The translations under genes were made by a program, and so were the position numbers. From contig DBZL01000055.1 in assembly GCA_002311745.1 (NCBI GenBank), forward strand, positions 124,001 to 188,000: a stretch of 64,000 bases of DNA, written 5' to 3'. The DNA comes from Phycisphaerales bacterium UBA1161. GTDB taxonomy: Bacteria > Planctomycetota > Phycisphaerae > Tepidisphaerales > Tepidisphaeraceae. Positions 16,167 through 46,911 of this stretch are shown piece after piece (position 1 is the stretch's first letter; the number at the start of each line of letters is the position of its first letter). A model generated the notes under the pieces. The model had not been told where the DNA came from. It saw only the letters and a list, made by a program, of their open reading frames with translations, and did not search any database.

Positions 16167-17165
16167 TTACGCCGCCGGGGCATCGGTGGGCAGAGGGGGC
16201 GAAGCCGGGGGTTCCGAGAGCTTTTCAAGCTGGATACTCTCGGCCGCGGTGGTTTTCCGCTGCTCGACCGGCGGCGCCTCGACGACGATGCGCGTCAGGG
16301 GAAAGGCGCGGCGAATCCCCTCGCATAATTGCCCGCTGCGCGGCTTCCACCATTCGGCGGCCTTGCTCAACTGCGTCCGGGCCTTGCGAAGATTGGACTG
16401 CGAAAGACTCAGAATCTGCTCGGCGAGTTGCGGATGGTGCAGGGCCAGATCGCTATCAACGATTTCGCAAAGCATCCGCTCGCTGAGGACGACGTAGTCG
16501 TGCCAGAGTCCCAGGGCGTCCTGGATTCGCTTGAACAGGGTGGTGACTTCCCGCGGCAGGGGCAGGCCGTGGGCTTTGGCCATCTCCAGAGTGTAGCGCA
16601 GCGATTTGCCGGCGATGCGCCAAGCGTGCGGATCGTTCTTGCCCAGCGAGGCGGCCTGCTCCGCGAAGGCGTCGAGCTGGAGATGCACCGACTCGGCCAG
16701 CAGGTATTCGATCGCGTCGCGGGCCTCGGCGATCTCCTGCCGCAAGCCCCACCACGAGCCGAGCCGCGCCAGCATCCGCGGCGCAGGAGCCTGCTTTTGC
16801 GCGGCGGCGACCGCGGCGGCGCGGCACTCGGAAAGACGATTCTTCAGCCAATCCACCGCGGCCTTGGATTTGGCGTCCCTGACCTTACCGAGATGTTGCA
16901 GCATGACATCCAGATCGCGCAGCGGCCCAAGCTGTCTGCGTAGGCGGCGCGTGACGCGGTCGAACGGTTTTCGGCAGCGGGCGGAGACGACCGAATCCAG
17001 AAGCTGCGTTGCCGCCTTTAGACGGCGGGTTGCCACGCGGGCATCGTGCACCACATCGACGTCCTGGCCCTTCAGGGCGGGCGGGATCAATTTGCGCAGG
17101 TCCTCGACCAAGGTGTCGAGGTATTTGAGCAGCGGGAAATTCGGTGCGGTTATCATCCGCGGCAT
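16167..17165 (-). CDS. CHAD domain protein
   Basis: 332-residue all-helical protein with conserved histidines and basic residues that in this family bind polyphosphate. The signatures VHDARVATRRLKAATQLL (residues about 39-56) and HAWRIAGKSLRYTLEMAK (about 180-197) are the two halves of the domain. A Pro-rich tail follows (EPPASPPLPTDAPAA). No CYTH phosphatase domain is fused. It is divergent from lpxC-fabZ, about 100 bases away. The physiological role cannot be told from the sequence. Confidence 0.8.
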   Translation of the reverse strand: MPRMITAPNFPLLKYLDTLVEDLRKLIPPALKGQDVDVVHDARVATRRLKAATQLLDSVVSARCRKPFDRVTRRLRRQLGPLRDLDVMLQHLGKVRDAKSKAAVDWLKNRLSECRAAAVAAAQKQAPAPRMLARLGSWWGLRQEIAEARDAIEYLLAESVHLQLDAFAEQAASLGKNDPHAWRIAGKSLRYTLEMAKAHGLPLPREVTTLFKRIQDALGLWHDYVVLSERMLCEIVDSDLALHHPQLAEQILSLSQSNLRKARTQLSKAAEWWKPRSGQLCEGIRRAFPLTRIVVEAPPVEQRKTTAAESIQLEKLSEPPASPPLPTDAPAA

Positions 17166-17268: not shown

Positions 17269-18597
<1,329 letters not shown>

Positions 18598-19483: not shown

Positions 19484-21166
19484 GTGTTCCGCATGTCCAA
19501 TAAGCTGCAATTGATTGGTTCTTCGTTCTTCGCCCAGACGATGCGCATCTTCACCACCATGGTCATGGCCCGGTTCATCGGGCCCACGGAACAAGGCGCG
19601 TATTTTCTTGTGTTGATCGTGTCGGGTTTTGTCGGATCGCTCGGCGACTTTTTTATCCCCCAGTCCCTCGTACAAATGCGCGGATTCTCGGATCAGACGC
19701 TTTTGGACACCGGCCTGCTGCTGGAAGGCGGCATCTTCGTTTTTTATGGATTGTTCACCATCGGCGGCGGAATGGTGCTATCGCACATGCACGGCGATCC
19801 GCGGCTTTGGAAATTGGCCGTTCTGGTCGCCCTCGCCAACGCTCTGAATGCCTTTTATTCCGTGCAGTTGGCCAACCTCAATCGAAATCTTCAATTTCGC
19901 TCGGAAAGTCGGCAGAACATCATTTTTTCGGTCTCTTCGGCGGTCGCGGGCATCATCCTGGCCTTGCTGGGCTGGGGGGCATTTGCCCTCGCCATGCAAT
20001 TATTGGTGGCGCAAATCCTGGCCAACATCGCCCTGAGCATAAGGGTGCCCTTGCGGTGGCCTCGCCAGTGCTCCTGGGCGGCGGCCAAGCGATATCTGAA
20101 ATTGGGCTTTCCCATGTCGATGGCCGGGTATGTCGGCAACGTGGAGGGAAGCATCGTCGGCATGGTGATCAATTCCGTGGCCGGTGAAACCGGCGTGGGG
20201 CTGTGGGGCAAGACCGTCCAGGTCCAACAGCTTTTCGCCCAAAACATCATGGCGGCGTTCCAACGAGTCGCCTATCCCTTGATCTGCCGTGCCACCACCA
20301 ATCCCAGCCATATGAAAAAGCTGTTCGTTCGCGTCACCATCACGTTGATGCTGGTATCCATTCCGCTGACGGTGGTCGTGGCGCTCAACAGCCCGGCCAT
20401 CATTCGCGTCGTCATGGGCTCCCAATGGATGGCGGCGGCGCCGCTGCTGCGGATCACCGCGTGGGCCATTCCCGCCGGCGCCCTGGCCTGCCTCGGCTAT
20501 ATGCTCTGCATGGCCCTGGGCATCACGGGTTCGGTGTTTCGGGCCAGCGCTTTGAACATCGTCGTTTTCGTGCCCTTATTGCTGGTCGCCCGGCGTTGGG
20601 AAATGGCGGGCCTGGCGGTGTGCTGGAGTCTGTCGCGGTACCTCATCGCTTGCTCGGTGCTCGTTTCCGCCACCCGCCGGTTGGGCGTACAGTTGCGCTT
20701 GGTGTGGCGTCAGGTATCCCGGCTGGCCGTCGCTGGCGCCGCCGGCGCCGCCGCGATGTTCGCGTTGATTCGAATCATACCCCCGCAATTGGTGGTGCCT
20801 TCGCATATTCGGTTACCCGGGGAACTTGCCTTATCGTGCCTGGTTGGCGCGGCGGCTTACGGCTTGGTTGTGCTGCTGATCGAAAGGGAGGCATTGGCTT
20901 ACGCTTGGCGAATGGCGCGCGGCAGCAGCGCGGCCCCGGAAGATCAACCCGGCGAATCCGAACAGTTGCAGGCGTTGGCTGCGGCCCCCCTGGGACCGGC
21001 AGATTCAGCCGATTTCTTGCTGACCGCCGGGGCGCTCGGAGTCGATGGTAATCTGCAGTCCAAAATCATGGCCAACCCCGCGGAGAGCCAAAGCGCCGGC
21101 CAATCCGCGCTCAACGCCGCGCCCTCCGCCTCCACCGCTAACCCTGAAGGCCATGGGCACGAATAA
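19484..21166 (+). CDS. Wzx-like oligosaccharide flippase
   Basis: Integral membrane protein of the MOP/PST superfamily, likely flipping undecaprenyl-linked glycan units to the periplasm. A GTG at 19484 has an AGGAG ribosome site nine bases upstream. About 12-14 hydrophobic segments span residues 5-470; family cues are FIGPTEQGAYFLVLIVSGFV near the N-terminus and YLKLGFPMSMAGYVGN in the middle. A hydrophilic tail of about 90 residues follows, rich in Ala, Ser and Glu and ending in GHGHE, which is unusual for a flippase. It opens the surface-glycan locus directly after the lipid A genes. Confidence 0.8.
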   Translation: MFRMSNKLQLIGSSFFAQTMRIFTTMVMARFIGPTEQGAYFLVLIVSGFVGSLGDFFIPQSLVQMRGFSDQTLLDTGLLLEGGIFVFYGLFTIGGGMVLSHMHGDPRLWKLAVLVALANALNAFYSVQLANLNRNLQFRSESRQNIIFSVSSAVAGIILALLGWGAFALAMQLLVAQILANIALSIRVPLRWPRQCSWAAAKRYLKLGFPMSMAGYVGNVEGSIVGMVINSVAGETGVGLWGKTVQVQQLFAQNIMAAFQRVAYPLICRATTNPSHMKKLFVRVTITLMLVSIPLTVVVALNSPAIIRVVMGSQWMAAAPLLRITAWAIPAGALACLGYMLCMALGITGSVFRASALNIVVFVPLLLVARRWEMAGLAVCWSLSRYLIACSVLVSATRRLGVQLRLVWRQVSRLAVAGAAGAAAMFALIRIIPPQLVVPSHIRLPGELALSCLVGAAAYGLVVLLIEREALAYAWRMARGSSAAPEDQPGESEQLQALAAAPLGPADSADFLLTAGALGVDGNLQSKIMANPAESQSAGQSALNAAPSASTANPEGHGHE

Positions 21167-27051: not shown

Positions 27052-28650
27052 TTAAGCTGCGGACATATCGGTGTCACCGGCTACCTCGCCAACTGGGGAA
27101 GGCGCGGCGAACGGTCGAACCAGAAGGATCACCAAGACGATGCCGGCAAGACCCACCAGAAGCGTATCCAATTCCGACAGACTAGGATCTCGGAAACCGC
27201 GGAAAAGCCAGGTGAGTACTCCGAGACTCAACAGGATGGTCAAGGGTCGCCCGCGATGATTCAGCAGCGCGCGTTCGCTGCGGCCCATCAACCAGCCAAG
27301 GAACAGTCCTCCCTGGATCACCCCGGGCACTCCGAACCGGAAGAACCAGAAGCCGAAGATCGTTTGCGAAATCGTGGTTCCTCCCATGCCGAGGCCGGCT
27401 TCACCGCTGCCTCCCAAAGAGATGGAGTTGTACCACGCCCACGAACTGTCTATGGGTTTAGTGGTCCACAGCGCCCGAGGCATCGGAGCGACCACGAACC
27501 AGAACAGAAAATTGGGAAGGGGTAGAACGATGGTCTCGCCGGGGAACTGGTCATAAAAGTAATCGTGCGTTTCCGGGATTACAGAAAAGCCCATCAGGCT
27601 CTCCGTAAACATGTCGTTGCCTTGCAGTTTGGTCAAAGACACTTCCGAAAAGCGCACCTCTTGAAACCCGGCGTTCCGGTAATAGGCTTGCGTTTGCACC
27701 ATCACCACGGTCGAGACCATACCGATGACCACGATGATGTAGGCGCGCAGACTAATGCGCCTCAGATACCTTCGTGCTATCAGGTGGTAGCGGAGGAAAA
27801 TGAAGAAAAGCATTGGCAGGATCTGGAAGACAACTTCCCCGCGCGTGCCGGTGCCAAATGCCAGCAGGAGCCAAAGCAGCCACACGGCAAAACAAACGAT
27901 CTTGCGGAGGAAACTCTGCCGGATAAACACCAGACAGAACGCCGCCAACAGCGCACCGCCCGTGCCGACCTGAATGATTTGGGCGACGTAACCGCCCCAG
28001 TTATAGTTGAGGTTGCCCGTTCGCCCCACCGTCCAACCGACCCCCGAGGCCCGACCCCCAATGATTTGATGAAACAACGCCAAATAAAACGGCTCCTGGG
28101 TGAACACGGAGTAAGGGGCCAGCCCGATCACCTGGGTGATCAGCATGACGTAAAAATAGACGTTGACGTTGGGCGGTTCGGGCAACAGAGTCATCCACCG
28201 GGTGAACCTCCGTCCAATGCGAAAGCGAATGCCGATCGACAAGCACAATACGTACAGCGTGCAACAGGCCGCCGCTTTCGCCACCGTTCGCTGCGTAAAC
28301 GGCATCTCCCAGTGGGGAATGGAAGCCAGAAACCAGGTGCCCATGTAGTCGTAGCAGAACCAGACCAGCACCCCCCCGTAAAGCACGATCCCGCCGACAC
28401 CCAATCGCTCCGAAAAGTGGTACAGCTCCAGCGCTAGGAAAACCGCGCACAGGATCGTCATCAGCAGAAACGCGAAGTCGGTCAACATCGCCGAGCCGCC
28501 GGATAGAAAGGAAACGGAGGCGAAGATGACCGGGATCAATAGCAGCAGTGGCTGAAGGATGGACCGCCGCCGAGGCTCGATCAGCGGTTGCACCGCTGGC
28601 ACATCGGTCGACTGCAGATCATCGGAGACGTCGTCGGTCCACTGACTCAT
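27052..28650 (-). CDS. Wzy-like oligosaccharide repeat-unit polymerase
   Basis: 532-residue inner-membrane protein with about 11-12 hydrophobic segments and a large periplasmic loop in the second half, the topology of O-antigen and exopolysaccharide polymerases. Cues are the Arg-rich FGTGTRGEVVFQILPMLFF and the late loop carrying LPLPNFLFWFVVAPMPRALW. An Arg/Gly-rich segment before a membrane helix is the usual catalytic site of Wzy proteins. Sequence conservation in this family is too low for more. With the flippase 6 kb away it completes a Wzx/Wzy-type assembly set. Confidence 0.7.
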   Translation of the reverse strand: MSQWTDDVSDDLQSTDVPAVQPLIEPRRRSILQPLLLLIPVIFASVSFLSGGSAMLTDFAFLLMTILCAVFLALELYHFSERLGVGGIVLYGGVLVWFCYDYMGTWFLASIPHWEMPFTQRTVAKAAACCTLYVLCLSIGIRFRIGRRFTRWMTLLPEPPNVNVYFYVMLITQVIGLAPYSVFTQEPFYLALFHQIIGGRASGVGWTVGRTGNLNYNWGGYVAQIIQVGTGGALLAAFCLVFIRQSFLRKIVCFAVWLLWLLLAFGTGTRGEVVFQILPMLFFIFLRYHLIARRYLRRISLRAYIIVVIGMVSTVVMVQTQAYYRNAGFQEVRFSEVSLTKLQGNDMFTESLMGFSVIPETHDYFYDQFPGETIVLPLPNFLFWFVVAPMPRALWTTKPIDSSWAWYNSISLGGSGEAGLGMGGTTISQTIFGFWFFRFGVPGVIQGGLFLGWLMGRSERALLNHRGRPLTILLSLGVLTWLFRGFRDPSLSELDTLLVGLAGIVLVILLVRPFAAPSPVGEVAGDTDMSAA

Positions 28651-28789: not shown

Positions 28790-31147
28790 TTATGGGACGG
28801 TCGCGGGCGCGACGGAAGCAGTCTCTTCGGCAGGCTGGACGCTTGGCGTGATTTGCGGCCACACCAAGCCGAAATACCGCATCGCCTGCACCACGCCATC
28901 CACCGGATCGGCCCCCTCACGCCATGACTGAAGCATCCCCGCGCAATGTTGTCGCATCTCCAGATATCGTTCGCCCGTGGTCACTTGCCAGATCGCATCA
29001 GCCATCGCCTCCACGCTGCGCGGCGGGATGAGCAGCCCATTGGCCTGATGCCGCACCAGTTCGACCGCCGCGCCCACCACCGACGTGGAGATCACCGGCA
29101 GGTCGCACGTCACCGCCTCGTTGATCACCAATCCCCACGGCTCGTATTCGCTGGGATGCACCAGCACATGGCAGGCGTGGTAGGCGCAGACGACTTCGTT
29201 GAATTGGATGAACCCCAGCCATTTGACCCGTTCGTGGAGGGAGGCGGGCACCAGCTGTTCCAATTCCTTGCGCAGCGTACCGCCGCCAGCGATGACCAAG
29301 TCCCATTGCGGCCGTCCCGCCGCTACGCGCACAAACGCCTTCAGCAGCACATCCACCCGTTTGACGTCCACCAAACGGCCGGAAAAAAGCAACCGCTTTC
29401 GATCCGGCGCCAGGCCGTACTTCTGGCAAAACGCGGCCAATTTCTCCTCTTCCACGTGCCTCAATCCCGCGTAATTCGGCTCGTAGGGAAACAGGAATTC
29501 CGGCAGATTGTGGTCCTTGTAGAGGCGGAAAAAGGCCCGTCCGCAGGTTCCCATCGGCATCAGACCATTAATGTGGTTCAGCACCCATCGGACGTAGCGG
29601 CGCTTGAGCACCCGCAGCCAGGGCGGCACGCGCCCCTCGGCAAAAATGTTGGAATCCCCCGCCAACAGCAGCGGAATTCGCTGGTGCCGCGCCCAAGCGA
29701 TCAGCAACATTCGCGTCAGGTCGTTGTATCCCAGCAGGACGATCATCTGGACGGTGTGGTTCCGCAGATAACGCCGAATCTTGAAAAACAGCGGCAACGA
29801 TCGCCGCGAAATCGGGAATTCCGCCCGCAGATGGTGGCGGGGGAAAAAGACCGGATTCACCTCCGCGCCGATCTGCATCTCCCACGGCATGCTGGGATTG
29901 GAAATCGTGTGGGTGAAGATGTTGTGCACATGGATGCCTCGCAACTCGCGGGCGATGCGGGTCAGCACGTGCACGCGGTAGGGCGTCGGTTCGTTGGAGA
30001 TGATGGCAATTTGACAGACCGCCTCGCCCGCCGCGACGTGGGGACGCGCCCCCAGAGCCGCTAACCGCTCTTTGGGCAGACCCATCGCATCCCATTGGGC
30101 GATGATTCGTCGCGCTGTTTCCAAGTCCGCGACGCTCAGAAATGCCAGCGCCGCCTGTACATCCCGCCTGTCCTGCGGCGAGGCACCGGCCAGAAACGTC
30201 TGGGCGAACGCCCCGGCCGCTCTCGACGCGCCGGACATCAACTGCGAATGGTGCAGCGACAGGTAATAGGCGATTTCATCGGTTCGGAACGGACCGTTGT
30301 CGCTGCTTTGTTCCCAGTCGATGATCCACAACCCTTCAGGCGTCAGAACCAGATTATTGATGCCAAAGTCGCCGTGCACCCGGCATACGGGCAGCCCGTC
30401 GGCGCAGCATCGATTCAACTCGCTCAAATATTGCGGCGTGATAATGTCTGGGCGGCTCTGAAGTTCCTGATACCACGCGGCCTCGCGAACCTCCGGCGCC
30501 GAGAGCAACCGCAGCGGGCCGGCCATCTCCTGGATCGACATCCGCAGCGCCTCCCAGGTCAAATCCGGTGAGGTCATGTCCTGCGGCAACGGCTCCAGAA
30601 GAAGGTACCGGTGTTCGTCGTACATCCCCTCGCGCGTGAGCCGCGGCACCTGAAACCGCACCGGCGGTGTGGCGCGGAACATCGTCAGCATCTCCACTTC
30701 GCGCGCCAGCCGAGCGTTGTTCTGCTGGTCCAACGCCAGTTTGGCAAATGCCACCGGCTGACCCCTCTGATCCAGCAGGTGCACATACAGGCGCCGCCGC
30801 TCGGTTTGCGGCGGGCCGTGGACCACCGGGAAAAGATCGTGCCGCCCCAAGTCGTCGCACAGCCTCTGCAGCAAGCCGGTGAAGTCCAGATCCCCGATAA
30901 ACGAACTTGGCAACGCCCCACGCTCAGAAAAGGGCCCGTCCAGATGCAGCTTCAGAGCCAGCTGCATCATCCGGCGGAACAGGCGGCGCTTGGCGCTGTA
31001 CACCGGGAAGCGCCGCACCGCCGCCATACGCAGACGCCGCTCGCCCATCGCCATGGCCAACACCGGCTTGCCCCCAGCGCGGAAAATCTGAAATTGGTTC
31101 CAGGAGGGTCGAGTCTGGCCTGCCGACGGCGATTCCGGCGATTCCAT
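28790..31147 (-). CDS. Fusion of APH-like kinase and GT4 glycosyltransferase
   Basis: 785 residues with two catalytic halves. Residues about 110-330 form an aminoglycoside-phosphotransferase-like kinase: candidate ATP Lys136 in VAFAKLALD, Glu152 in REVEML, catalytic loop VCRVHGDFGINNLVL (Asp260, Asn265) and metal Asp277 in WIIDWEQ. Residues about 378-785 form a GT-B GT4 enzyme: IAIISNEPTPYRVHVLTRI at its N-terminus, LLFSGRLVDVKRVDVLLKAF and the acidic loop YEPWGLVINEAVTCDLPVI. Both sets of key residues are intact, so one chain could phosphorylate a lipid-linked sugar or lipid and glycosylate it. In sugar modification of LPS, kinases of this fold (WaaP, KdkA) act on core sugars. The acceptor is unknown. 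Confidence 0.75.
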   Translation of the reverse strand: MESPESPSAGQTRPSWNQFQIFRAGGKPVLAMAMGERRLRMAAVRRFPVYSAKRRLFRRMMQLALKLHLDGPFSERGALPSSFIGDLDFTGLLQRLCDDLGRHDLFPVVHGPPQTERRRLYVHLLDQRGQPVAFAKLALDQQNNARLAREVEMLTMFRATPPVRFQVPRLTREGMYDEHRYLLLEPLPQDMTSPDLTWEALRMSIQEMAGPLRLLSAPEVREAAWYQELQSRPDIITPQYLSELNRCCADGLPVCRVHGDFGINNLVLTPEGLWIIDWEQSSDNGPFRTDEIAYYLSLHHSQLMSGASRAAGAFAQTFLAGASPQDRRDVQAALAFLSVADLETARRIIAQWDAMGLPKERLAALGARPHVAAGEAVCQIAIISNEPTPYRVHVLTRIARELRGIHVHNIFTHTISNPSMPWEMQIGAEVNPVFFPRHHLRAEFPISRRSLPLFFKIRRYLRNHTVQMIVLLGYNDLTRMLLIAWARHQRIPLLLAGDSNIFAEGRVPPWLRVLKRRYVRWVLNHINGLMPMGTCGRAFFRLYKDHNLPEFLFPYEPNYAGLRHVEEEKLAAFCQKYGLAPDRKRLLFSGRLVDVKRVDVLLKAFVRVAAGRPQWDLVIAGGGTLRKELEQLVPASLHERVKWLGFIQFNEVVCAYHACHVLVHPSEYEPWGLVINEAVTCDLPVISTSVVGAAVELVRHQANGLLIPPRSVEAMADAIWQVTTGERYLEMRQHCAGMLQSWREGADPVDGVVQAMRYFGLVWPQITPSVQPAEETASVAPATVP

Positions 31148-31293: not shown

Positions 31294-32076
31294 TTGAATC
31301 AATCGTACTCCCAGCATTTCCGAAATGACGCCGAGGCACGGCGATATGAAACCGGCGAATACGCCCCTTTCAGCTATGCCAGCTTGCTGTATGAAATCGA
31401 GTGTCAGCAGTTGCAGGAGGTGATCGCCGCGCTACGGCAAAGCAAGCCCACCCTCCAGTGCTTGGACTTCGCCTCGGGCACCGGACGCATCACCGCCTTT
31501 TTGGAAAATCACGTCGATGCGGTCACCGGCATCGAAATCTCCGAGCAGATGTGCACCGTGGCCCGGACCAAGGTGCGCCAGGCGCGCATCCTCTGCGCCG
31601 ACATCCTGGCCCCCGGCGCCGCCGTCGAGGGAAAATACGACTTGATCACGGCCTTCCGATTCTTCCTCAACGTCGAGCCGGCGCTGCGCCTGGTGGCTCT
31701 GCGCGCTCTGGCGGGGCGTTTGCGGGATTCGGACAGCTTGCTGGTTTTCAATAACCACGGAAATCTTTGGAGCCACAAGCTGCTTCTGTGGCCGTACCAC
31801 GCCCTGCGCCGTCTGGGCAAAGGTCGGGTCCTGGCCGGAAATTACCTCTCCTCGCGCCGCATGCTTGCCCTTCTTCCCCAGGCCGGATTGCAAATCTTCC
31901 GCACCATGGGCTGCGGCTTTTACAGCCCCAAAATCCTGAAGTTGGTTTCCTACGAAAGGGCTTTGCGGATGGAACGGCGCATCGCCGCCTCGCGCGGGTT
32001 GTCCCCCCGGTGCGTCAACCAGATGTACCTCACCAAGCTCGCCGCCTCAGCCGCGCTCCCGGCGCGCCGGGACTGA
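31294..32076 (+). CDS. Class I SAM-dependent methyltransferase
   Basis: 260 residues. The start is a TTG at 31294, fixed by an AGGAGG ribosome site eight bases upstream; no ATG is suitably placed. The SAM motif is CLDFASGTGRITAFL, followed by VTGIEISEQM, where Glu contacts the ribose, and YDLITAFRFFLNVEP. It resembles the ubiE/BioC-like group (Methyltransf_11/25). Divergent from the kinase-glycosyltransferase fusion; by context it probably methylates a sugar of the surface glycan. Confidence 0.8.
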   Translation: MNQSYSQHFRNDAEARRYETGEYAPFSYASLLYEIECQQLQEVIAALRQSKPTLQCLDFASGTGRITAFLENHVDAVTGIEISEQMCTVARTKVRQARILCADILAPGAAVEGKYDLITAFRFFLNVEPALRLVALRALAGRLRDSDSLLVFNNHGNLWSHKLLLWPYHALRRLGKGRVLAGNYLSSRRMLALLPQAGLQIFRTMGCGFYSPKILKLVSYERALRMERRIAASRGLSPRCVNQMYLTKLAASAALPARRD

Positions 32077-32107: not shown

Positions 32108-33091
32108 TCAGTTCGCTGCGGTCCGAACCATGGCATCCGGCGGCCTGCCCGCCACCGCACGCCCGTCGAACCCGAATCGCTCCTGCAATCGGTTGAATTC
32201 CTGGCAAAGCCTCGGAGGCAACACCAGCGGCGGACCCGTGTTGCGACGCGTCGTGTCGATCTGGCGGACCGACCACCCCAGCCATTTCGCCGGCACCTCC
32301 AGCGACAGAAAATCGCAGATTCTCTGAATCGATCCCGTCGGTTCCACCGTCAATTGGTCATACGTCATCTCCAACAGCCGATCCCCCAGTCGCGATCGCC
32401 ATCGATCCACCTCCGCCAGGCTCACAATCCACTCGTACGCACCTTTGGATTCATAGCTCTGCAACAGGGGCACTTCGTTCGCGAAATAGCCAGCGGCCAT
32501 GCCCTCGACGGCCAACGCCGTCCACTTGCTCGCTCCGCGGCCCCACCAGCGGTTCAGCGCCGCAGTCCCCGCGATCCGGTACGACCGATCGCTCGACAGC
32601 CGCCGGATCGAATAAACCACGTCCAATCCGCTACGGATCAGATGAATGAATTTGCTTCCGGGCTTCAGCGCGTCCAGATACCCGATGCGGCAGGCATTGA
32701 ACGGCGTTTTCTCAATGACCAGGGGCTTGCCCAATCGCCGCGCCGGCGCCAGCATCAGTCGATCGAATCGCCGCCGCAGCTCATCGGCGCAATCTTGCTG
32801 ATCCAACAGGAACCGCGCCGCGTCGCGGGAATACAGATTCAGCACGTCGATGCTCGGGTCGATGGTCGCCCAAAGGTGGTAAGGCTCGAAGAAGTAGTAC
32901 ACTTGCGGGTGCTGGTTCAACACCATGCCCAGGACGGTTGTGCCGGAACGGCCGCACCCGATCAGAAACGCCGCCCGCGGCCGCTGCACGTCCAGTTCCC
33001 CGTCGCTTTGGGCCGCGACTCGCCGTTCCGCGCGGTGCTTCATATAGCCGTACTTAAGGGCACGGCCCAGTGGCTTGAGAAGCTGCTTCAC
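32108..33091 (-). CDS. PAPS-dependent sulfotransferase
   Basis: 327-residue soluble sulfotransferase. The 5'-phosphosulfate loop is FLIGCGRSGTTVLGMVL near residue 42, and the 3'-phosphate site is FIHLIRSGLDVVYSIRRLSS. Lys and Glu of LVIEKTPFN lie between them. It would transfer sulfate to a glycan hydroxyl, making the surface polysaccharide sulfated. The GTG start lies inside a 37-bp direct repeat whose second copy stands 1.39 kb away. No PAPS-synthesis genes are in the window. Confidence 0.85.
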   Translation of the reverse strand: MKQLLKPLGRALKYGYMKHRAERRVAAQSDGELDVQRPRAAFLIGCGRSGTTVLGMVLNQHPQVYYFFEPYHLWATIDPSIDVLNLYSRDAARFLLDQQDCADELRRRFDRLMLAPARRLGKPLVIEKTPFNACRIGYLDALKPGSKFIHLIRSGLDVVYSIRRLSSDRSYRIAGTAALNRWWGRGASKWTALAVEGMAAGYFANEVPLLQSYESKGAYEWIVSLAEVDRWRSRLGDRLLEMTYDQLTVEPTGSIQRICDFLSLEVPAKWLGWSVRQIDTTRRNTGPPLVLPPRLCQEFNRLQERFGFDGRAVAGRPPDAMVRTAAN

Positions 33092-33243: not shown

Positions 33244-34440
33244 TCAAATCGCCAATTCGCCATACATCGTTTCATAGCCGGCCGCGAGCGAATTGGCTTC
33301 GAAATGCTTCAGGACCCATTGTCGCCCGCGCTCTCCCAGCGCCGTCAGAAGGCCGGGATCATCCAGCAGGCGAGTTAGAGCCGTGCACAGCGCCTGCGGC
33401 GTATTGTCCACTATCGTTCCTCCGGCTGACTGGATCTCCTGCCAGATGTCAGTCTCGCGCGTGGTTACGACTGGCGTCGCCGCGGCGAGCGCCTCGATCA
33501 ACACCATGCCAAAATTCTCCTGTCGCGTGGGAAGGATGAACAAGTCGGCGGCCTCATATAAAGAGATCTTCTCCACCCCGCTGACCATTCCCAGGAAGGC
33601 GACCTCCCCGCCAAGGCCGAGGCGATCGATCCGCTGTTGAAGTTGCATCTGGTAAGCGGGTGCGCCGCTGCCGGCAATAAAAACCTTGAACGTTCGCCCC
33701 GAATCACGCAGCAGGGCGGCGGCCTCGATCAATACGTCCGCACCCTTTTTTTCGTGCAGGCGGCTCAGAAACAAAAGCTTGGGTTCGTCGACGTTGAGGG
33801 CGGGGAAACGCGTCCGAGCCGGCCCCTCGCCAGGCAGTATCTGGAACGGGGCTAGATCCACCAGCAGGGGCAGCACGATCGGCTGCGAGCCGCCAACCCA
33901 TTTTTGGGCCTGATCCCGCTCAGCGGCCGCGCTGTAGTGGATTCTGGCCGCCCGCCTAAGAAAACGCCGCCCCCCGATCATCAGGAACAGTCGCTTTTTC
34001 AGATGTTTCTGAGCCATCGACCAGTCGTCCAGCATCCCGTGGATGGAGACGATGTACGGCACACCGAGTCGGCGCGCGATCTTGGACATCTGAAGATTGC
34101 TGGCGGTCCAGGGGCAATGCAGGTGGGCGACGCCGCCTCCGCTCAGCACGTTTTCCCAGATGCGCAGCGCCTCTTTACCCACCATCCCGTTGGGCCGGCG
34201 CGGGGGAGGCACGGTGACGACTCGCGGCTTTGGGCCAGCGCCATTCCAATCGGCCGGCACGTCCGGCGAATCGTACGTCACCAGGATGACCTCATGCCCT
34301 CGCGCGGCCAGAACGGCGCACCAATCCAAAACCGTGCGAACGATGCCCCCCAATTCCAGCCGCAGCCGCGGGCAGTATTGAATGATCTTCAAGCGTCTTG
34401 CCGCCTCGGGCGATTTCGGACGCGGAGATAGGCTCATCAA
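33244..34440 (-). CDS. Glycosyltransferase family 4 protein, flanked by direct repeats
   Basis: 398-residue GT-B enzyme. The N-terminal domain begins RRLKIIQYCPRLRLELGGIV and contains the glycine-rich acceptor loop; the donor domain has PKLLFLSRLHEKKGADVLIE and the acidic motif RQENFGMVLIEALAAATPVV. The gene with its flanks is bounded by 37-bp direct repeats (33084 and 34475), so it may have entered or been duplicated as a unit. Its neighbours on both sides are glycan genes, and the divergent GT4 at 34512 is a related but clearly different enzyme. Confidence 0.85.
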   Translation of the reverse strand: MMSLSPRPKSPEAARRLKIIQYCPRLRLELGGIVRTVLDWCAVLAARGHEVILVTYDSPDVPADWNGAGPKPRVVTVPPPRRPNGMVGKEALRIWENVLSGGGVAHLHCPWTASNLQMSKIARRLGVPYIVSIHGMLDDWSMAQKHLKKRLFLMIGGRRFLRRAARIHYSAAAERDQAQKWVGGSQPIVLPLLVDLAPFQILPGEGPARTRFPALNVDEPKLLFLSRLHEKKGADVLIEAAALLRDSGRTFKVFIAGSGAPAYQMQLQQRIDRLGLGGEVAFLGMVSGVEKISLYEAADLFILPTRQENFGMVLIEALAAATPVVTTRETDIWQEIQSAGGTIVDNTPQALCTALTRLLDDPGLLTALGERGRQWVLKHFEANSLAAGYETMYGELAI

Positions 34441-34474
34441 CGACGATTATACAGTGTCGCATTGAAGAGGATGA

Positions 34475-34511
34475 TGCTTCACGACCCAACTCCGCTTATG
34501 CTGGCCAGCGC
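34475..34511. repeat. 37-bp direct repeat, copy 2
   Basis: Second copy of the repeat at 33084-33120, one mismatch. It lies immediately before the ATG of the plus-strand GT4 gene and upstream of the minus-strand GT4 gene. Confidence 0.9.
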
Positions 34512-35690
34512 ATGAGAATCGCACACGTCATTCCCTCCCTGGATCCGGCCACCGGCGGACCGCCCATCGTCGCCGCCGCCTTGGCCGCCGCTCAGGCCGC
34601 TTTGGGGTGTCAAACGCGCCTGGTCGCCTATGGCTTCCCTCACGCTCAGCAGAACGTCGAAACCGCTCTGCGCACCATCCCCCACATGGCCCAGGTGACC
34701 GTGGACTATTTGCCGCCTCTAACCCGCCCGGAGCGCTTTCTGGCCCACGGCGCTCGCCGGCGGCTTGTGCCGCTGCTTGCGGGGGCGGATGTCATTCATC
34801 TGCACGGTGTGTGGGACCCGGTCGTCTACGCAGCCGCTGCCGTCGCCACCAAGCTGGCCATTGGCTACGTCTTGACGCCGCACGGAATGCTCGATCAATG
34901 GGCCATCGCCCAGAAGCCTTGGAAAAAACGCCTGGCCCTGCTGCTGGGATATCGCGGCATGCTTCAGCGGGCGATGTTCCTGCATTTTCTCAACGAAGAT
35001 GAGCGGTCCCTGGCCGCGCCGTTGCATCTGGCCGTCGAGTCTCAAGTCCTGCCCAACGGGATTTTTCTGGAAGAGTTCGATTCACTTCCGCCCAAAGGCG
35101 AGTTTCGCGCCGCCCGGCCGCACTTGGTGGATAAGCCCTTCGTGCTGTTCCTGGGCCGCTTGCACTACAAAAAGGGGCTGGACTATTTGGCCGATGCCTT
35201 CGCCATCGTTGCTCGACAAATTCCCCAAACCCAGCTGGTCGTGGCCGGCCCCGATGCCGGCGCCCAACGCGAATTGGAGTCGCAGATCAAGGGCCTGGGG
35301 ATTGCCGATCGGGTTCACTTGATCGGTCCGATCTACGGCCGGGAAAAACTCCGGGCCCTGGTGGATTGCGACTGCTTTTGTTTGTCCAGCCGGCGGGAGG
35401 GATTCAGCCTGGCCGTCACCGAGGCCATGGCCTGCCGGGCCCCCGTGGTGATTTCCAAATCCTGTCATTTCCCCGAGGTGCAGGAGGCCGGCGCGGGCAC
35501 CGTGGTCGATTTGGACCCATCCCAGATCGCCGCGGCCATCATCGCCGTCTTGGCCGACCCAGCCAAGGCCCGCCAGATGGGCGAGGCCGGCCGCCAACTG
35601 GTGCTAACCCGTTTCACTTGGCCCACGGTCGCGCGGCAGATGATCGACGCCTACCGCGGCGCCATGGGAGTCGAATCAAAGGACAGTTGA
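34512..35690 (+). CDS. Glycosyltransferase family 4 protein
   Basis: 392-residue GT-B enzyme starting MRIAHVIPSLDPATGGPPIV, which is the classical GT4 opening; an earlier in-frame start at 34398 would overlap the divergent gene. The donor domain carries FVLFLGRLHYKKGLDYLADA and the acidic motif RREGFSLAVTEAMACRAPVV. VLTPHGMLDQWAIAQKPWKK is typical of the WcaI/PelF-like group that acts in exopolysaccharide synthesis. The direct repeat ends at the base before its ATG. Confidence 0.85.
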   Translation: MRIAHVIPSLDPATGGPPIVAAALAAAQAALGCQTRLVAYGFPHAQQNVETALRTIPHMAQVTVDYLPPLTRPERFLAHGARRRLVPLLAGADVIHLHGVWDPVVYAAAAVATKLAIGYVLTPHGMLDQWAIAQKPWKKRLALLLGYRGMLQRAMFLHFLNEDERSLAAPLHLAVESQVLPNGIFLEEFDSLPPKGEFRAARPHLVDKPFVLFLGRLHYKKGLDYLADAFAIVARQIPQTQLVVAGPDAGAQRELESQIKGLGIADRVHLIGPIYGREKLRALVDCDCFCLSSRREGFSLAVTEAMACRAPVVISKSCHFPEVQEAGAGTVVDLDPSQIAAAIIAVLADPAKARQMGEAGRQLVLTRFTWPTVARQMIDAYRGAMGVESKDS

Positions 35691-35707: not shown

Positions 35708-36592
35708 TCAATCGCGGTCTGGCGCACCGCCGCCGTCAAATTCCCCCGCCTCGCCGCGTTGTGCTGACATGGACCGATCGGTAATGGATCCCGGCGGCCG
35801 GTCTTTCGCCGCTTCGCCGCCGGTCAACCCCTTCAAGTTTGCGGCCAGCTCCGGCGAATGAGCCATCGTGGGTTCGTCTTTGATCCGTTCCACCGCGTAG
35901 ACCGCGCCCACCATCCGCTCGATCTTCCCTTCGCTATCCAAATACATCTTGCCGCGCGTGTACACCCGCCGCACCGCCCCGTCGCCGCAGATGACGCGGT
36001 GCGAAATTTCGTAACTCCGCGACGTCAGTCCCCCCTGCACGGATGCCAAGCGGAAAAAATCGCGGTCTTCCGGATGGATATAGGCAAAGAACCCTTCGTA
36101 GGTCGTGGCGAACTCGTTGTCGCTGCGGCCGAACAGCTCGCACAAGTTGGGCGACCTCCAGAACGTGTTGTGGCGGACGTCCGCATCCCAGCATGCCACG
36201 CCCGACGATTCCAGCGCAAATCCCAGCCGCTGCTCGCTCTCCGTCAGTCTTTTGCGCATGCGATTGCGCGCCGTTTGGAGGGAACCGATGATCACCGCAA
36301 CCACGACAAACACGATCAAGCGAAGCATGTCGTCGGCGTTTTTGAGGCGCAACGATCGTGCCGGAGGCAGGTTCCACATGGCGATGAGCGTGGAAAGGAC
36401 GATGGCATACATCGTCACCATGAATCCACCGCGCAAGGCCGCGACCGCTACGGCCAGCAGGTACAACCCGAGGAAGGCGGATTGGTGGGTCGTCGAATAT
36501 CGGCCTAGCAACAGTGAAACGACGGTTGCCAGAACCACCAGCACCGTCGCCCAAACATAATCAAGGAGTTTTCGACGGATTTGACGATCCAT
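35708..36592 (-). CDS. DUF4118 membrane sensor with PAS domain, no output domain
   Basis: 294 residues. The N-terminal 105 residues hold four hydrophobic segments of the KdpD-like DUF4118 type (VWATVLVVLATVVSLLLGRY at the start). A short coiled linker leads to one PAS fold of the PAS_3 type at about 120-240 (GVACWDADVRHNTFWRSPNL, then FAYIHPEDRDFFRLA). No histidine kinase, GGDEF or other effector follows; the tail of about 50 residues is low complexity. It may be a truncated sensor or work through a partner. Confidence 0.75.
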   Translation of the reverse strand: MDRQIRRKLLDYVWATVLVVLATVVSLLLGRYSTTHQSAFLGLYLLAVAVAALRGGFMVTMYAIVLSTLIAMWNLPPARSLRLKNADDMLRLIVFVVVAVIIGSLQTARNRMRKRLTESEQRLGFALESSGVACWDADVRHNTFWRSPNLCELFGRSDNEFATTYEGFFAYIHPEDRDFFRLASVQGGLTSRSYEISHRVICGDGAVRRVYTRGKMYLDSEGKIERMVGAVYAVERIKDEPTMAHSPELAANLKGLTGGEAAKDRPPGSITDRSMSAQRGEAGEFDGGGAPDRD

Positions 36593-36673: not shown

Positions 36674-38290
36674 TCAATCGCGCAGCACGCGCGTTTTGAG
36701 CACCGCGGCTGCGGGACCGGCCACCACCTGATCCGGGCCCACGTCCTTCACCACCGTCGCCCGCGCGCCCACCACCGCCCGATCGCCCACCGTCACCCCC
36801 GGGCCGATGAACGCATCCGCCGCGATCCACGCATCCTCGCCGACCACGATCGGCGGTCGCAGCAGGGGGAAACGCCGCGTCGTGTAATCGTGCGTGCCGG
36901 CGCACAAATGCGCATATTGACTGATGATCGACCCTCGCCCGATGGTGATCTTCCCCAGCGAATAGAGGATCACATGATCGCCGATGTCCACGTCGTCGCC
37001 GATGTCCAGGTTCCAGGGGATCTCCACCAAAACGGTGGGGCGGATACGCACGTCGCGGCCCAGCTTGGCGCCGAACAGCCGCAACAGCAGCCGCCTCCAC
37101 CCATACCAGTTGTGAAACGAACAGCGGAACAACGCCGTCCGCAACAGCATCCACAAGACGCGCTTTAGGTTTTCCATCGGACTCCAGGGGCTGGGTTGTT
37201 TTTTGGGATGCAGCGGGACCACCGTGGCCACTTGCGGCTCCAGCGCCAGCCTTCCCGGCCCAAGCTCCGGCGGCGGCGCCTTGGGCGGCGCTTTGGGCTT
37301 GGGCGCCGGCTGCGCCGGCCGTTCGACAATCTGGTTCACGGCCTCGGCCGTGCTCATCTCGATCGCCTTGAGCACGTCCGGTTCGGGCACCAGCGTGGAC
37401 AGGGCGGCGGTGGGTAATTCCGGCGCCCCCTCCTGTTGCGCCAGGCCCACCACGCCAATCGGATCTTTGCCGCCCGTACGCACCAACTCCTTGTATTTGG
37501 CGCGGATGAACAACTCGTAGGTGCTGATCAGCAGGCTCAGCGTCAGCCCCGACTCGCGGTCGAAAATCCCGCCACGCACAACATACATGTAGAAAAACCG
37601 CAACAGCCACGGCATCGGCAGCTTCGGCGCCAACCGGTATTTCACGTACCGCCGCCGCGCCACTCGGTCATTGAGAATCCCGCCCAGCCCCGGCCATTTC
37701 TGCCGCTGGCGGTAAATCTCCCGCGCTTCCAGCGTCGAATACCGGTTGTGCTTGGCGATGAAATGCTCCAGCCCGCGATGGTCCTCGTGGATCAGCAGAT
37801 TATTCAGGTATCCCGTGCGCCCGTGCACCACCATGTGCTCGTGCACTTCCCGCTCCTCGTAGTGCGCCAGCCCACGCTTGAACAGTCGCAGGTTCCACGA
37901 CGGGAAAAACGCCGAGTGGTAAATCTCCCGGCCCAAAAACACCGTCACGCGGTTCAGAAAATACCCGGTGCACGGCACCGTCTTGATCGGCCGCGTGACT
38001 ATCTGCAGAATCTCTTCTTTCAATGCCGGGCTGACCCGCTCATCGGCGTCGAGAATCAACACCCAGGGCGCTTCAAACGGCAGGTTGTCCAGGGCCCAGT
38101 TCTTCTGCTTGGCGTAGCCCTGCCATTCGTGCTGCACGAATGCAGCGCCGTGGGCCAGGGCGATCTGCCGCGTCCGGTCCGTCGAGCCGCTGTCGACGAT
38201 GAAGATGCGATTGACCCATCCCTGGATGCTGGCCAAGGTGTGCCCTAGGTTCAGTTCCTCGTTGTGGGTTTGAATCAGGACGTCGACCAT
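36674..38290 (-). CDS. Fusion of GT2 glycosyltransferase and WcaF-like acetyltransferase
   Basis: 538 residues. Residues 1 to about 270 are a GT-A enzyme of the WaaE/KdtX type: DVLIQTHNEELNLGHTLASI, IVDSGSTDRTRQIA and the metal motif WVLILDADERVSP. Residues about 290-385 form a Pro/Ala/Lys linker (PAQPAPKPKAPPKAPPPE). Residues about 385-538 are a hexapeptide-repeat acetyltransferase like colanic acid WcaF, with a His in CAGTHDYTTRRFPLL as the probable catalytic residue and WIAADAFIGPGVTVGDRA in the beta-helix. Both active sites look intact. One chain may add a hexose and then O-acetylate the growing glycan. Confidence 0.8.
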   Translation of the reverse strand: MVDVLIQTHNEELNLGHTLASIQGWVNRIFIVDSGSTDRTRQIALAHGAAFVQHEWQGYAKQKNWALDNLPFEAPWVLILDADERVSPALKEEILQIVTRPIKTVPCTGYFLNRVTVFLGREIYHSAFFPSWNLRLFKRGLAHYEEREVHEHMVVHGRTGYLNNLLIHEDHRGLEHFIAKHNRYSTLEAREIYRQRQKWPGLGGILNDRVARRRYVKYRLAPKLPMPWLLRFFYMYVVRGGIFDRESGLTLSLLISTYELFIRAKYKELVRTGGKDPIGVVGLAQQEGAPELPTAALSTLVPEPDVLKAIEMSTAEAVNQIVERPAQPAPKPKAPPKAPPPELGPGRLALEPQVATVVPLHPKKQPSPWSPMENLKRVLWMLLRTALFRCSFHNWYGWRRLLLRLFGAKLGRDVRIRPTVLVEIPWNLDIGDDVDIGDHVILYSLGKITIGRGSIISQYAHLCAGTHDYTTRRFPLLRPPIVVGEDAWIAADAFIGPGVTVGDRAVVGARATVVKDVGPDQVVAGPAAAVLKTRVLRD

Positions 38291-44270: not shown

Positions 44271-44579
44271 ATGCGCATGTTGCTACAGATCACGATTCCG
44301 CACGAGCCGTTCAACACCGCCGCGCGCGACGGCACGGCCGGCGCCAAGATCGGGCGGATTCTGGAGGCGACCAAGCCCCAGGCGGTCTATTTCACCGAGC
44401 AGAACGGCCATCGCGGCGCGGTCGTCATCGTGGATATTCCCGATCCGTCGAAGATTCCCGCCACGGTCGAGCCGTGGTTCGTGACGTTCAACGCGGACGT
44501 GCAGATCCGCATCGCCATGACGCCGGAGGACCTCAAGAAATCCGGTCTGGACGAGATGGGGAAAAAGTGGTCGTCGTGA
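44271..44579 (+). CDS. Small conserved alpha/beta protein
   Basis: 102 residues from the ATG at 44271, preceded by GGGAG at a good distance. The sequence (ITIPHEPFNTAARDGTAG, then VYFTEQNGHRGAVVIVDIPD and ATVEPWFVTFNADVQIRIAM) resembles a family of about 100 residues that databases often mislabel as pantothenate synthetase (DUF3303-like ferredoxin fold). No catalytic residues are known. Its 3' end overlaps the convergent spermidine-synthase-like gene by 47 bases. Confidence 0.65.
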   Translation: MRMLLQITIPHEPFNTAARDGTAGAKIGRILEATKPQAVYFTEQNGHRGAVVIVDIPDPSKIPATVEPWFVTFNADVQIRIAMTPEDLKKSGLDEMGKKWSS

Positions 44580-46911
44580 CCGCCTCGGCCAGGGGATGCT
44601 GGGCGATTCCGCGGCGGCGGGCCAGCATGGATGCGATCATGCTTAAGGCGTAGATCGCCAGGGCCAGCACGTACAGGAAGCGGTAGCCGAAGTACATCGA
44701 GTTGTATTCCAGGCACCCGCCCAGCATCGCCCCCAGCAGGTTCGAGCCCAGCGCCGCGCCGATGGAGCGGACGGACCTGATTTCGGATGAGAAGACCAGT
44801 CCCGAGAAGAACAGAGGCAGGGTGATGACGCCGGTGGCCAACGCGCGGCTGGTCCACAGGTTGTGAATGGAACCGCTCAGCGACCCGAACCACAGGCTGA
44901 AGGCCAAGCTGGCCAGCAACAGAACGTAGCAGAGAGCCGTGGGGATGGATCGCAGGCGCATCACCAGCGAATTAGCCAGGAATGCCATGATCAGGATGGC
45001 GGTGATGACCACACCGATGGTGACCCACGTGCTGCCGTAGTAGAGGGCCAATTCGGTGATGGCCTTGGTTTCCAGGAGCATGAAGCCGGCTCCCAGGAGA
45101 AAGCAGGGGCCGGAGAATCCACCGCCGGAATTCTTCATGGCCGGTCTGATGAAGACGGCCGCCGCCGCCAGCAGCACGCAGATCATGATCAGATACGACA
45201 CGGGGTATTTTCGCACGGGCATGTAGAAAAACGGCCAATCATCCGTGGACACGTTGACGCTAAAGCGATTGGCCATGGCGTTGTCGATTCGTTGCATCGG
45301 CAGCGGCAGGACGGGAATGGGGCCGCTGATGTTCCCGGCGACGTAAGTCACCGCCCCGTCGTAGAGGGACCTGAAGATCACCGGCTCCTGGCCGTCGAAG
45401 GCCTGCTTGAGCATGAGGTAGATTTTGTTGCTTATCTCGGGACTAACCATCGAGAACGACAGACAAAGCACGCCGTCCGGTTTCAATCGGGCGCGAGCCT
45501 CTTGGAGCGCCTCGACGGTGTAGATGTAGCTGTCCAGGCGCACGCCGCCCAGGCCCGACAGCAGCGTGTGCGAATCGAGCAAGCCGTAAACGATCAGGTC
45601 GTATGTCTGGCGGCCGTAGCGGATGAACGAGCGGGCATCCTGCACGTGGGCGGTCACGCGGTCCGATTGGTAAGGCGATTCGGGATGGAAGAGCTGACCC
45701 AGCCGGTAGATGGCCGGATCGATCTCCACCGCATCCACGTGGCCGGCGCCATTACGCAGAGCGGCTGCCACGTCGTTGCCCGTGCCGGCGCCCACCACCA
45801 GCACGTCGTTCGAATGCGCACGGAAACGGTAGGGCAGGCCGTAATACACCGCCGCCGGGCTGTGCAACATCGTATTGGGCGCGTTGGGGCCGAAGTTGAG
45901 AATCTTCTGGTAGTACGAGTGGTTCACGCAGAGCAGCAGGGGCTGGTGCGCCGCCGGCGGCTGCACCGTCAGAACCTGATACGGCGAATAGACGTCGTAG
46001 CTGTGTACCTGGAACGTCGTGTTGAGGATGCCGAAGATGACGGCGGCGGCCGCGGTCGTGCTCAGCAGATGTTGACCCAAAAACGGCGACAGCAGCACGA
46101 TGGCGGCGGCGAACCACACCACCGGCGGCGCCCACACCAGCGACAAACCGTAAAAAAGACCGATGCCCGCGAGGCTGCCCAGCAGGTTCCAGCCATACGC
46201 CGCCAGCTTCGGCGAGCGGCGCATCACCCGCGCGGCCACTTGTCCCAGCGGCATGAAGCAGATCGCGTTGACGCTGAAGACCCACACCAAAAAGCTGTAC
46301 ACCAGCACCGCCGAACTCACACCCGAGATCGTGCCCATTCCCAGCGCTTTTTGTTCCAATACGGGGTTGTTCAGCGTCAGACCGATGACCCCGAAACGCA
46401 GAATGTGAAGAAACACGACCTGCACCGCCAGCAGTGGCAGCAGCAGGAGGATGAACAACAAGCTGCCCTCTCCCAGGATGTAGCCGATCCCCAAACCCAG
46501 GAAGCATGACAGGAGGCTGATGTTCTTGAAAAAAGCGAACAGGGCGAAACAGGAGGCATGAAAGCGGATAAGAACCAGTTCCAGATACAACCCCGCCCCC
46601 GCGGCCAGGGCGATCCAAAACCAGCGCAGCCTTGGCGGCAAGGCGTCGATGCCATCGGCATCATGCTCCAGCTGCCGCCGCAGCTTCGGCCACCAGAGGT
46701 GCCGCCACCGCGCCATCAGCACCGCCAGCGCCGCCGGCACGGGGCACAAAACCATGAACACGCCAGCCGATATCGCATCGCTCCACTCGTTGTAGTAGCG
46801 CACCGCCGCCGCCACGCAGAACGCCGCCCAACTGACAACGATCAGGATCAGCGGCAACATCCACGGCCGAGAGGGCCGTGCCCATGGCTGTGTGCCTGTC
46901 ACGCGTTTCAT
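44533..46911 (-). CDS. Membrane protein with spermidine-synthase-like domain
   Basis: 792 residues. Eight or more hydrophobic segments fill residues about 15-320, a soluble methyltransferase-like domain follows at about 330-560, and about seven more segments end the chain. The soluble part has DVLVVGAGTGNDVAAALRNG and VDAVEIDPAIYRLGQL, the nucleotide pocket of spermidine synthases, and YDLIVYGLLDSHTLL at the aminopropyl-transfer site, where classical enzymes have a conserved Asp. This fused architecture is frequent in planctomycetes and delta-proteobacteria; no member is functionally known to me. Polyamine synthesis should not be assumed. Confidence 0.75.
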   Translation of the reverse strand: MKRVTGTQPWARPSRPWMLPLILIVVSWAAFCVAAAVRYYNEWSDAISAGVFMVLCPVPAALAVLMARWRHLWWPKLRRQLEHDADGIDALPPRLRWFWIALAAGAGLYLELVLIRFHASCFALFAFFKNISLLSCFLGLGIGYILGEGSLLFILLLLPLLAVQVVFLHILRFGVIGLTLNNPVLEQKALGMGTISGVSSAVLVYSFLVWVFSVNAICFMPLGQVAARVMRRSPKLAAYGWNLLGSLAGIGLFYGLSLVWAPPVVWFAAAIVLLSPFLGQHLLSTTAAAAVIFGILNTTFQVHSYDVYSPYQVLTVQPPAAHQPLLLCVNHSYYQKILNFGPNAPNTMLHSPAAVYYGLPYRFRAHSNDVLVVGAGTGNDVAAALRNGAGHVDAVEIDPAIYRLGQLFHPESPYQSDRVTAHVQDARSFIRYGRQTYDLIVYGLLDSHTLLSGLGGVRLDSYIYTVEALQEARARLKPDGVLCLSFSMVSPEISNKIYLMLKQAFDGQEPVIFRSLYDGAVTYVAGNISGPIPVLPLPMQRIDNAMANRFSVNVSTDDWPFFYMPVRKYPVSYLIMICVLLAAAAVFIRPAMKNSGGGFSGPCFLLGAGFMLLETKAITELALYYGSTWVTIGVVITAILIMAFLANSLVMRLRSIPTALCYVLLLASLAFSLWFGSLSGSIHNLWTSRALATGVITLPLFFSGLVFSSEIRSVRSIGAALGSNLLGAMLGGCLEYNSMYFGYRFLYVLALAIYALSMIASMLARRRGIAQHPLAEAVTTTTFSPSRPDRIS

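Follow-up and report, generated by a model that had tools for sequence, protein, structure and literature searches.

The window, that is the whole stretch of 64,000 nucleotides analysed here, carries on its minus strand, at 28790-31147, a single uninterrupted frame which starts with ATG and encodes a protein of 785 aa, called KIN-GT4h below, in which a kinase half is followed by a glycosyltransferase half of the GT4 type. It lies in a polysaccharide locus: this setting, already assumed in the preliminary description of this DNA, is borne out by a Wzx-like gene, a Wzy-like gene and many glycosyltransferase (GT) genes. The features are listed with position, strand and supporting evidence.

19484-21166, plus: Wzx-like flippase (Polysacc_synt_3; PF13440, E 6.3e-40)
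27052-28650, minus: Wzy-like polymerase (PF14296, 28.9 bits, cut-off 26.6; 44% identity in locus L064)
28790-31147, minus: KIN-GT4h, kinase-glycosyltransferase fusion of 785 aa (open frame; Pfam APH and Glycos_transf_1; 21 proteins of the same order)
28862-30016, minus: GT4 (GT-B) half of KIN-GT4h, residues 378-762, with R591 and K596 (donor diphosphate) and E669 and E677 (E-x7-E)
30017-30091, minus: linker of KIN-GT4h, residues 353-377, about 25 aa (pLDDT <50 at 356-376)
30092-31093, minus: kinase half of KIN-GT4h, residues 19-352, a family-specific N-terminal part (to about residue 80) and an APH/choline-kinase fold
31294-32076, plus: class I SAM-dependent methyltransferase (MT), divergent from KIN-GT4h (Pfam Methyltransf_25; TTG start inferred from orthologues)
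32108-33091, minus: stand-alone sulfotransferase (ST), which we interpret as the one-time head of an ST-GT4 fusion (identity to ST halves; tail keeping the fusion linker)
33244-34440, minus: GT4 neighbour, without counterpart in L064 (genome G104)
34398-35690, plus: GT4 neighbour (order kept in L064 from G104, 50-65% identity)
35708-36592, minus: PAS (order kept in L064 from G104, 50-65% identity)
36674-38290, minus: GT2-acetyltransferase fusion (order kept in L064 from G104, 50-65% identity)

Locus L072 likewise has Wzx- and Wzy-like genes, and no ABC exporter was found among the 29 ORFs of the window that were scanned. Several other frames can be noted in passing. The gene at 36674-38290 joins a GT2 to a WcaF-like hexapeptide acetyltransferase, has full-length orthologues (45-65%) in L017, L019, L064 and L068, and is a second fusion of a GT with a decoration enzyme in this cluster. 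In other genomes of the class, several WcaF-like acetyltransferase stretches stand in tandem beside sulfotransferase genes (L065, L066, L067 and L068). Near the polysaccharide cluster, LpxC and FabA-like domains (lipid A genes) share a single frame (17269-18597, plus), adjoined by a CHAD-domain protein (16167-17165, minus). The 792-aa protein encoded at 44533-46911 (minus) shows a weak spermine-synthase domain in its middle, and nothing else in it matched at E 1e-5.

Architecture of KIN-GT4h and its kinase half

Residues 180-287 of KIN-GT4h match the Pfam family APH (PF01636) with 25.4 bits (E 1.4e-5), above the cut-off of 23.2 bits, and residues 575-735 match Glycos_transf_1 (PF00534) with 121.6 bits (E 3.4e-35). 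The precomputed PF01636 label is absent from many of its relatives. AlphaFold2 modelled both halves as folded domains (for the kinase half alone, pLDDT 89.1 and pTM 0.85): the predicted structures have, respectively, the two-lobed kinase fold of the APH type and the GT-B fold of the GT4 type. Among 5.8 billion proteins searched, 71 matched, the window's own (P0001) included, and 21 other proteins (P0002-P0022) have the same kinase-GT4 order, being 45-90% identical over 86-99% of the query. This rules out an artefact of assembly or of frame (P0002 is identical at 90%). Hence, we concluded that KIN-GT4h is a genuine fusion, in which the catalytic residues of both active sites are intact. The preliminary description had read an APH-like kinase and a GT4 in one polypeptide from the motifs HGDFGINN (from residue 258), IIDWEQ (containing D277) and EPWGLVINEA (from residue 669), and its reading stands. 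The motifs are as quoted, and no stop is found at residues 340-380, where it had considered that one might have been missed. The structure prediction and the search for the same order elsewhere, both of which it had proposed, gave the results above; the homologues, which it had allowed might always be separate genes, are fused in 21 other proteins and separate sometimes.

The alignment of the kinases has 27 rows: the window, 15 fusions, P0061 and 10 proteins that lack the GT half, some of which may be truncated. All 27 share K136, E150, H258-G259-D260, N265 and D277 without change. We take these residues to be the catalytic set, with K136 as the beta3 Lys, E150 as the alphaC Glu, H258, D260 and N265 as the HxDxxxxN motif and D277 as the metal Asp. 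The nearest structures include the APH, maltokinase, glucosamine kinase and fructosamine kinase folds, and kinases of the APH fold mostly have small molecules as substrates. The kinase half thus has the fold and the catalytic residues of the superfamily of APH, the choline kinase LicA and fructosamine-3-kinase, but it is only 9-18% identical to the solved APH-superfamily members, it has an additional N-terminal region of about 80 residues and, unlike that superfamily, it has partners from a glycan locus. We did not retain its identification as an antibiotic-resistance kinase, for which there is a likeness of fold and no support beyond it.

Stand-alone kinases of this family are found in L016-L019 and in L072. 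The kinase is rare: it occurs in 3 of the 397 sampled genomes of the class, in 2 of 392 genomes of the phylum (with a different query) and, by a scan of genome contigs, in two named Phycisphaeraceae MAGs. The labels of these relatives suggest that the window is itself of planctomycete origin. Remote kinases in G157 and G121 (25-26% identity, 46-bit matches) were not counted as members of the family, as their architecture is different and they have no MT or GT4h partner; no methyltransferase of this kind was found beside either of them. The frame in G157 (L073, 4589-7360, minus; about 923 aa) ends with an APH-like kinase region, its N-terminal half being without assignment, and lies on a contig which also has GT4 genes. 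A search of plasmids gave no kinase-GT4 protein at E 1e-20 and one GT4 at 27%.

Partners of the GT4 family and state of its donor site

The other matches of the protein search show with which partners this GT4 family is joined. Among P0023-P0058, 33 proteins have it fused to a sulfotransferase (P0032 holding only part of it), with a GT4 59-70% identical to that of the window. Six of the 71 matches are a GT4 alone, and some of these (for example P0030) look like fragments of fusions; one is a kinase alone (P0061) and nine are distant. Using P0018 as query added P0083 and the partial kinase-GT4 proteins P0084 and P0085, the last of which is labelled Tepidisphaeraceae, and the genome search found GT4 frames too short for an N-terminal head in eight genomes. 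The sulfotransferase is the commoner partner of this GT4 family. Its fusions (the 33 proteins, one of which is labelled Tepidisphaeraceae, and that of G104) have the same GT4 family in the same C-terminal position as KIN-GT4h, and differ from it by an N-terminal head which is a sulfotransferase instead of a kinase. In distant relatives of the GT4 half (P0063-P0068, 27-30%) the fused N-terminal partner is of a third type, a GT2 domain. A sulfotransferase frame of 994 aa in G308 was not accepted as another fusion; we read its excess length as an upstream non-coding extension.

KIN-GT4h retains R591, K596, E669 and E677, the last two of which form the E-x7-E of GT4 enzymes. By the aligned ranges, R591 and K596 correspond to R326 and K331 of TarM, which coordinate the donor pyrophosphate according to the cited part of PMC5974469. 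Of the 25 kinase-GT4 proteins, 15 no longer have R591 and/or K596, whereas the residues of the kinase site are constant. The losses affect 12 of the 22 kinase-GT4 proteins of the main search, the window being counted among the 22 (P0008, P0009 and P0013-P0022), and all three of P0083-P0085. They group in at least two lineages, which means that the independent events of loss are few. No such loss is seen in the 39 sulfotransferase-fused or stand-alone rows, nor in the nine loci from the genome searches, among which is the G104 fusion. In one degenerate clade the GT half is 74.6% conserved, against 77.1% for the kinase half; a half still so conserved is therefore not decaying freely. Binding of the acceptor would be the natural reading of these degenerate GT4 halves, and an altered donor is possible.

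For the window itself the conclusion is different. Every tested GT4 residue is kept and a search of its genome, about 80% complete, gave no other GT4h, so that the GT half of KIN-GT4h is probably active. Given the losses in 15 of 25 proteins, coupled phosphorylation and transfer is not general. The preliminary description had supposed that the enzyme phosphorylates a glycan or a lipid and extends it in one step: the phospho-decorated glycan is still a sensible guess, but the GT halves that look dead in so many relatives speak against an obligatory coupling. Where the donor residues are gone, a glycosyltransferase would have been turned into a binding domain.

The adjacent genes and the history of the fusion

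The ST beside KIN-GT4h resembles the sulfotransferase halves of the fusions: it is 62% identical over 325 residues to that of P0023, and 62-65% identical over its length to those of P0023-P0027, whose GT halves are, P0002 apart, the nearest overall to that of the window (66-70%). In G104, which belongs to the same family as the window, the order is GT4, GT2-acetyltransferase, PAS, GT4, ST-GT4 fusion and Wzy, the fusion being one frame of 753 aa with the Wzy orthologue directly after it. The order on the minus strand of the window matches this, with an extra GT4, followed by ST, MT (on the other strand), KIN-GT4h and Wzy. This means that the methyltransferase and the kinase occupy the place of the ST-GT4 linker of G104. 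That linker measures 15 or 16 residues from RA to SNEP in all 30 anchored proteins (6 of the 36 proteins P0023-P0058 had no anchor and were left out: P0030, P0032, P0042, P0043, P0049 and P0056). The last 15 residues of ST match these linkers at a mean of 4.27 of 15 positions, compared to 1.33 for shuffles, of which 1 in 20,000 did as well. Among the unfused sulfotransferases, 10 of the 11 tails included (of 15) end within 10 residues of the linker point; that of L058 is longer and unlike. We read the tail of ST as the probable remnant of a former ST-GT4 fusion. No convincing repeats or composition scars were found at the inserted segment, and the promoter scan was empty.

In a tree of the GT4 halves (61 of the 71 proteins, P0061 and P0063-P0071 being left out), well-supported branches force at least three changes of the kinase label. 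The window and P0002 fall in a group of seven with five ST fusions (support 99/93), within which no sister is singled out. In its main clades, the kinase tree is congruent with a GT tree reduced to the fusions. When the GT half was cut in 15 overlapping stretches of 50 residues, ST-fused groups were nearest to the window in 13, P0023-P0027 being first or tied in 7, and the kinase-fused P0007/P0010-P0012 were nearest by 1-4 points in the other two (454-528). No clear recombination breakpoint within the GT half came out of this comparison. The linker between kinase and GT4 has a similar length in the relatives and a sequence which is not conserved; in most kinase-GT4 members 117-129 residues, mostly 128, separate HGD from the start of the GT.

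It is most likely that the window fusion arose when a kinase/methyltransferase cassette split an ST-GT4 gene. Three histories can be considered for the family. An independent joining of the kinase to GT4h remains among them; a single old kinase-GT4h fusion, whose head changed place through recombination where GT4h begins, is possible; a repeated loss of the kinase yielding ST-GT4h is less likely, because the ST-GT4 linker is constant. The similar length of the kinase-GT4 linkers and the agreement of the trees make an old single fusion with later exchanges, or kinase loss, possible too. Under all three histories the head is exchangeable.

The other neighbour, MT, is a regular companion of the kinase. 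An orthologue directly adjoins the kinase in all six loci of this kinase family with readable surroundings (the window, L016, L017, L018, L019 and L072), five of which have stand-alone kinases. These orthologues are 43-51% identical to the window MT in L016-L019 and 36% in L072, which comes from another class, and in L017 the gene beyond MT is a GT4 of the same family (37% identity). Of the 397 genomes, the 3 with the kinase are also the ones, and the only ones, with a strong match to MT (>225 bits); weaker matches (76-107 bits) occur without the kinase in five further genomes. With kinase and MT adjacent, methylphosphate, the product of WbdD and of Klebsiella O7 ORF6, is more likely than plain phosphate.

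According to the cited part of PMC3482155, WbdD of E. coli O9a is a kinase-methyltransferase pair making methylphosphate on a glycan, and with WbdA it resembles the window locus in that kinase and methyltransferase work on a glycan while physically tied to mannosyltransferases. Unlike KIN-GT4h, its kinase and the GT are separate proteins, and its kinase resembles eukaryotic protein kinases. Sequence search found no WbdD chain at E up to 10 with the kinase half or up to 1 with MT; WbdD is also not among the best 50 Foldseek matches, an absence which is not evidence. As far as the cited part of PMC11231755 describes it, ORF6 of Klebsiella pneumoniae O7 holds in one chain a methyltransferase, an APH-like kinase resembling the aminoglycoside-type kinase AmiN, and two GT2 modules, and makes methylphosphate. 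An APH-like kinase, a methyltransferase and a glycosyltransferase thus meet on one glycan, as they would at the window locus; the O7 protein is a terminator with GT2 modules, a coiled-coil ruler and an ABC-transporter pathway, whereas the window has a GT4, a separate MT gene and Wzx/Wzy-like genes. By analogy, these two pairs would be the best guide to the chemistry at the window locus.

Proposed function and its alternatives

We propose that KIN-GT4h would be a two-headed enzyme of a surface-polysaccharide pathway of the Wzx/Wzy type. Its GT4 half would add one sugar to the lipid-linked repeat unit, and the kinase half, kept on the same acceptor by the GT half, would phosphorylate a hydroxyl of the glycan using ATP; the neighbouring MT would methylate the glycan phosphate, giving a methylphosphate substituent. 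The fusion would have its origin in a kinase/MT cassette inserted between the halves of an older ST-GT4 fusion, and the displaced sulfotransferase would persist as the next gene. As it survives next door, sulfate may be a further substituent of the glycan. Decoration of the repeat unit is likelier than a cap at the end of the chain, in view of the Wzx/Wzy-like genes, of the lack of an ABC exporter in the 29 ORFs and of a linker too short for a ruler. From sequences and models we infer the activities of the kinase, the GT4 and the MT in this locus. The same applies to the substrate, to the order in which the steps follow one another, to the direction in which the genes were rearranged, and to the idea that the methyl group goes to the phosphate and not to a sugar. 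Taken as a whole, with glycan phosphorylation, phosphate methylation and cassette origin together, this is our best explanation, with a little less than an even chance of holding in full.

The kinase could instead make a sugar phosphate from a free sugar, a precursor of a nucleotide sugar for later use by the GT4 half or by a different GT, and the fusion would channel this precursor. This would suit the nearest structures (APH, maltokinase, glucosamine kinase and fructosamine kinase), mostly small-molecule enzymes, and L017 has a PfkB/cytidylyltransferase gene about 6 kb from its kinase. Yet no nucleotidyltransferase stands beside the kinase among the Pfam-scanned neighbours (window, L016 and L017; nine neighbours in L018, L019 and L072), and a precursor kinase explains neither the close MT partner nor the sulfotransferase in the same place in the relatives; we consider it unlikely. 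The conserved kinase-MT pair would also be expected of a WbdD-like terminator, capping the non-reducing end with methylphosphate and setting the length of the chain, and in the cited parts of their sources WbdD and Klebsiella O7 ORF6 make such ends and either recruit polymerising GTs or are linked to them. Such a role seems rather improbable at this locus: Wzx- and Wzy-like genes are present here and in L072, the 29 ORFs scanned in the window include no ABC exporter, the linker is, with its 25 aa or so, too short to house a coiled-coil ruler, and the exchange with a sulfotransferase fits a side decoration better.

Two other readings keep the kinase on the glycan. If the GT4 half of this family were mainly a platform which binds the acceptor and aims the kinase, and no transferase, one would understand why the donor residues R591/K596 are lost in 15 of 25 kinase-GT4 proteins, from two lineages or more, where the GT half of one clade stays about as conserved as the kinase half (74.6 vs 77.1%), and lost in none of the 39 ST-fused or stand-alone rows or of the nine genome-search loci. 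Against it stands the window copy, which keeps all the tested GT4 residues in a genome (about 80% complete) where no second GT4h was found; we consider the platform reading improbable. Alternatively, phosphate and methyl could lie in different places, the kinase phosphorylating one sugar and MT O-methylating another, as methyltransferases of polysaccharide loci often do. But the kinase and MT stay together in divergent loci and in another class, and co-occur in the same 3 of 397 genomes, and separate sites thus appear very improbable to us.

With regard to novelty, the preliminary description knew of no described bifunctional enzyme pairing these folds. This was too strong in kind, since a kinase and GT2 modules have been published in one polypeptide, ORF6 of Klebsiella O7 (cited part of PMC11231755). 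The capsule polymerases Cps3D and Cps7D, like KIN-GT4h, also combine phosphate transfer with a GT-B domain, which in them is TarM-like, in a single polypeptide; according to the cited part of PMC5974469, their phosphate-transferring domain is TagF-like and transfers hexose- or polyol-phosphate, and is not a kinase. A kinase with a GT in one chain (GT2) and phosphate transfer with a GT-B (TagF-like) are therefore already known from these sources. What may be new is the pairing of a kinase with a GT4: among the matches listed, in the open-access literature, we found no published kinase-GT4 fusion, and no sulfotransferase-GT4 fusion.

Finally, we suggest tentatively, thinking it more apt to fail than to hold, that a single GT4 family forms a docking base on which different heads can be mounted, mostly a sulfotransferase and otherwise a kinase with its methyltransferase, swapped just before the first GT4 strand, and that in several lineages the base has become a pseudo-glycosyltransferase which only presents the acceptor. 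If this is true, a new head would replace sulfate by methylphosphate as the charged group of the glycan and leave the glycosidic linkage unchanged. With heads swapped in this way, kinase and sulfotransferase are predicted to recognise one and the same acceptor, which the GT4 determines, and the system would offer a sequence-level handle on the choice made by bacteria between sulfate and phosphate on their surface glycans.
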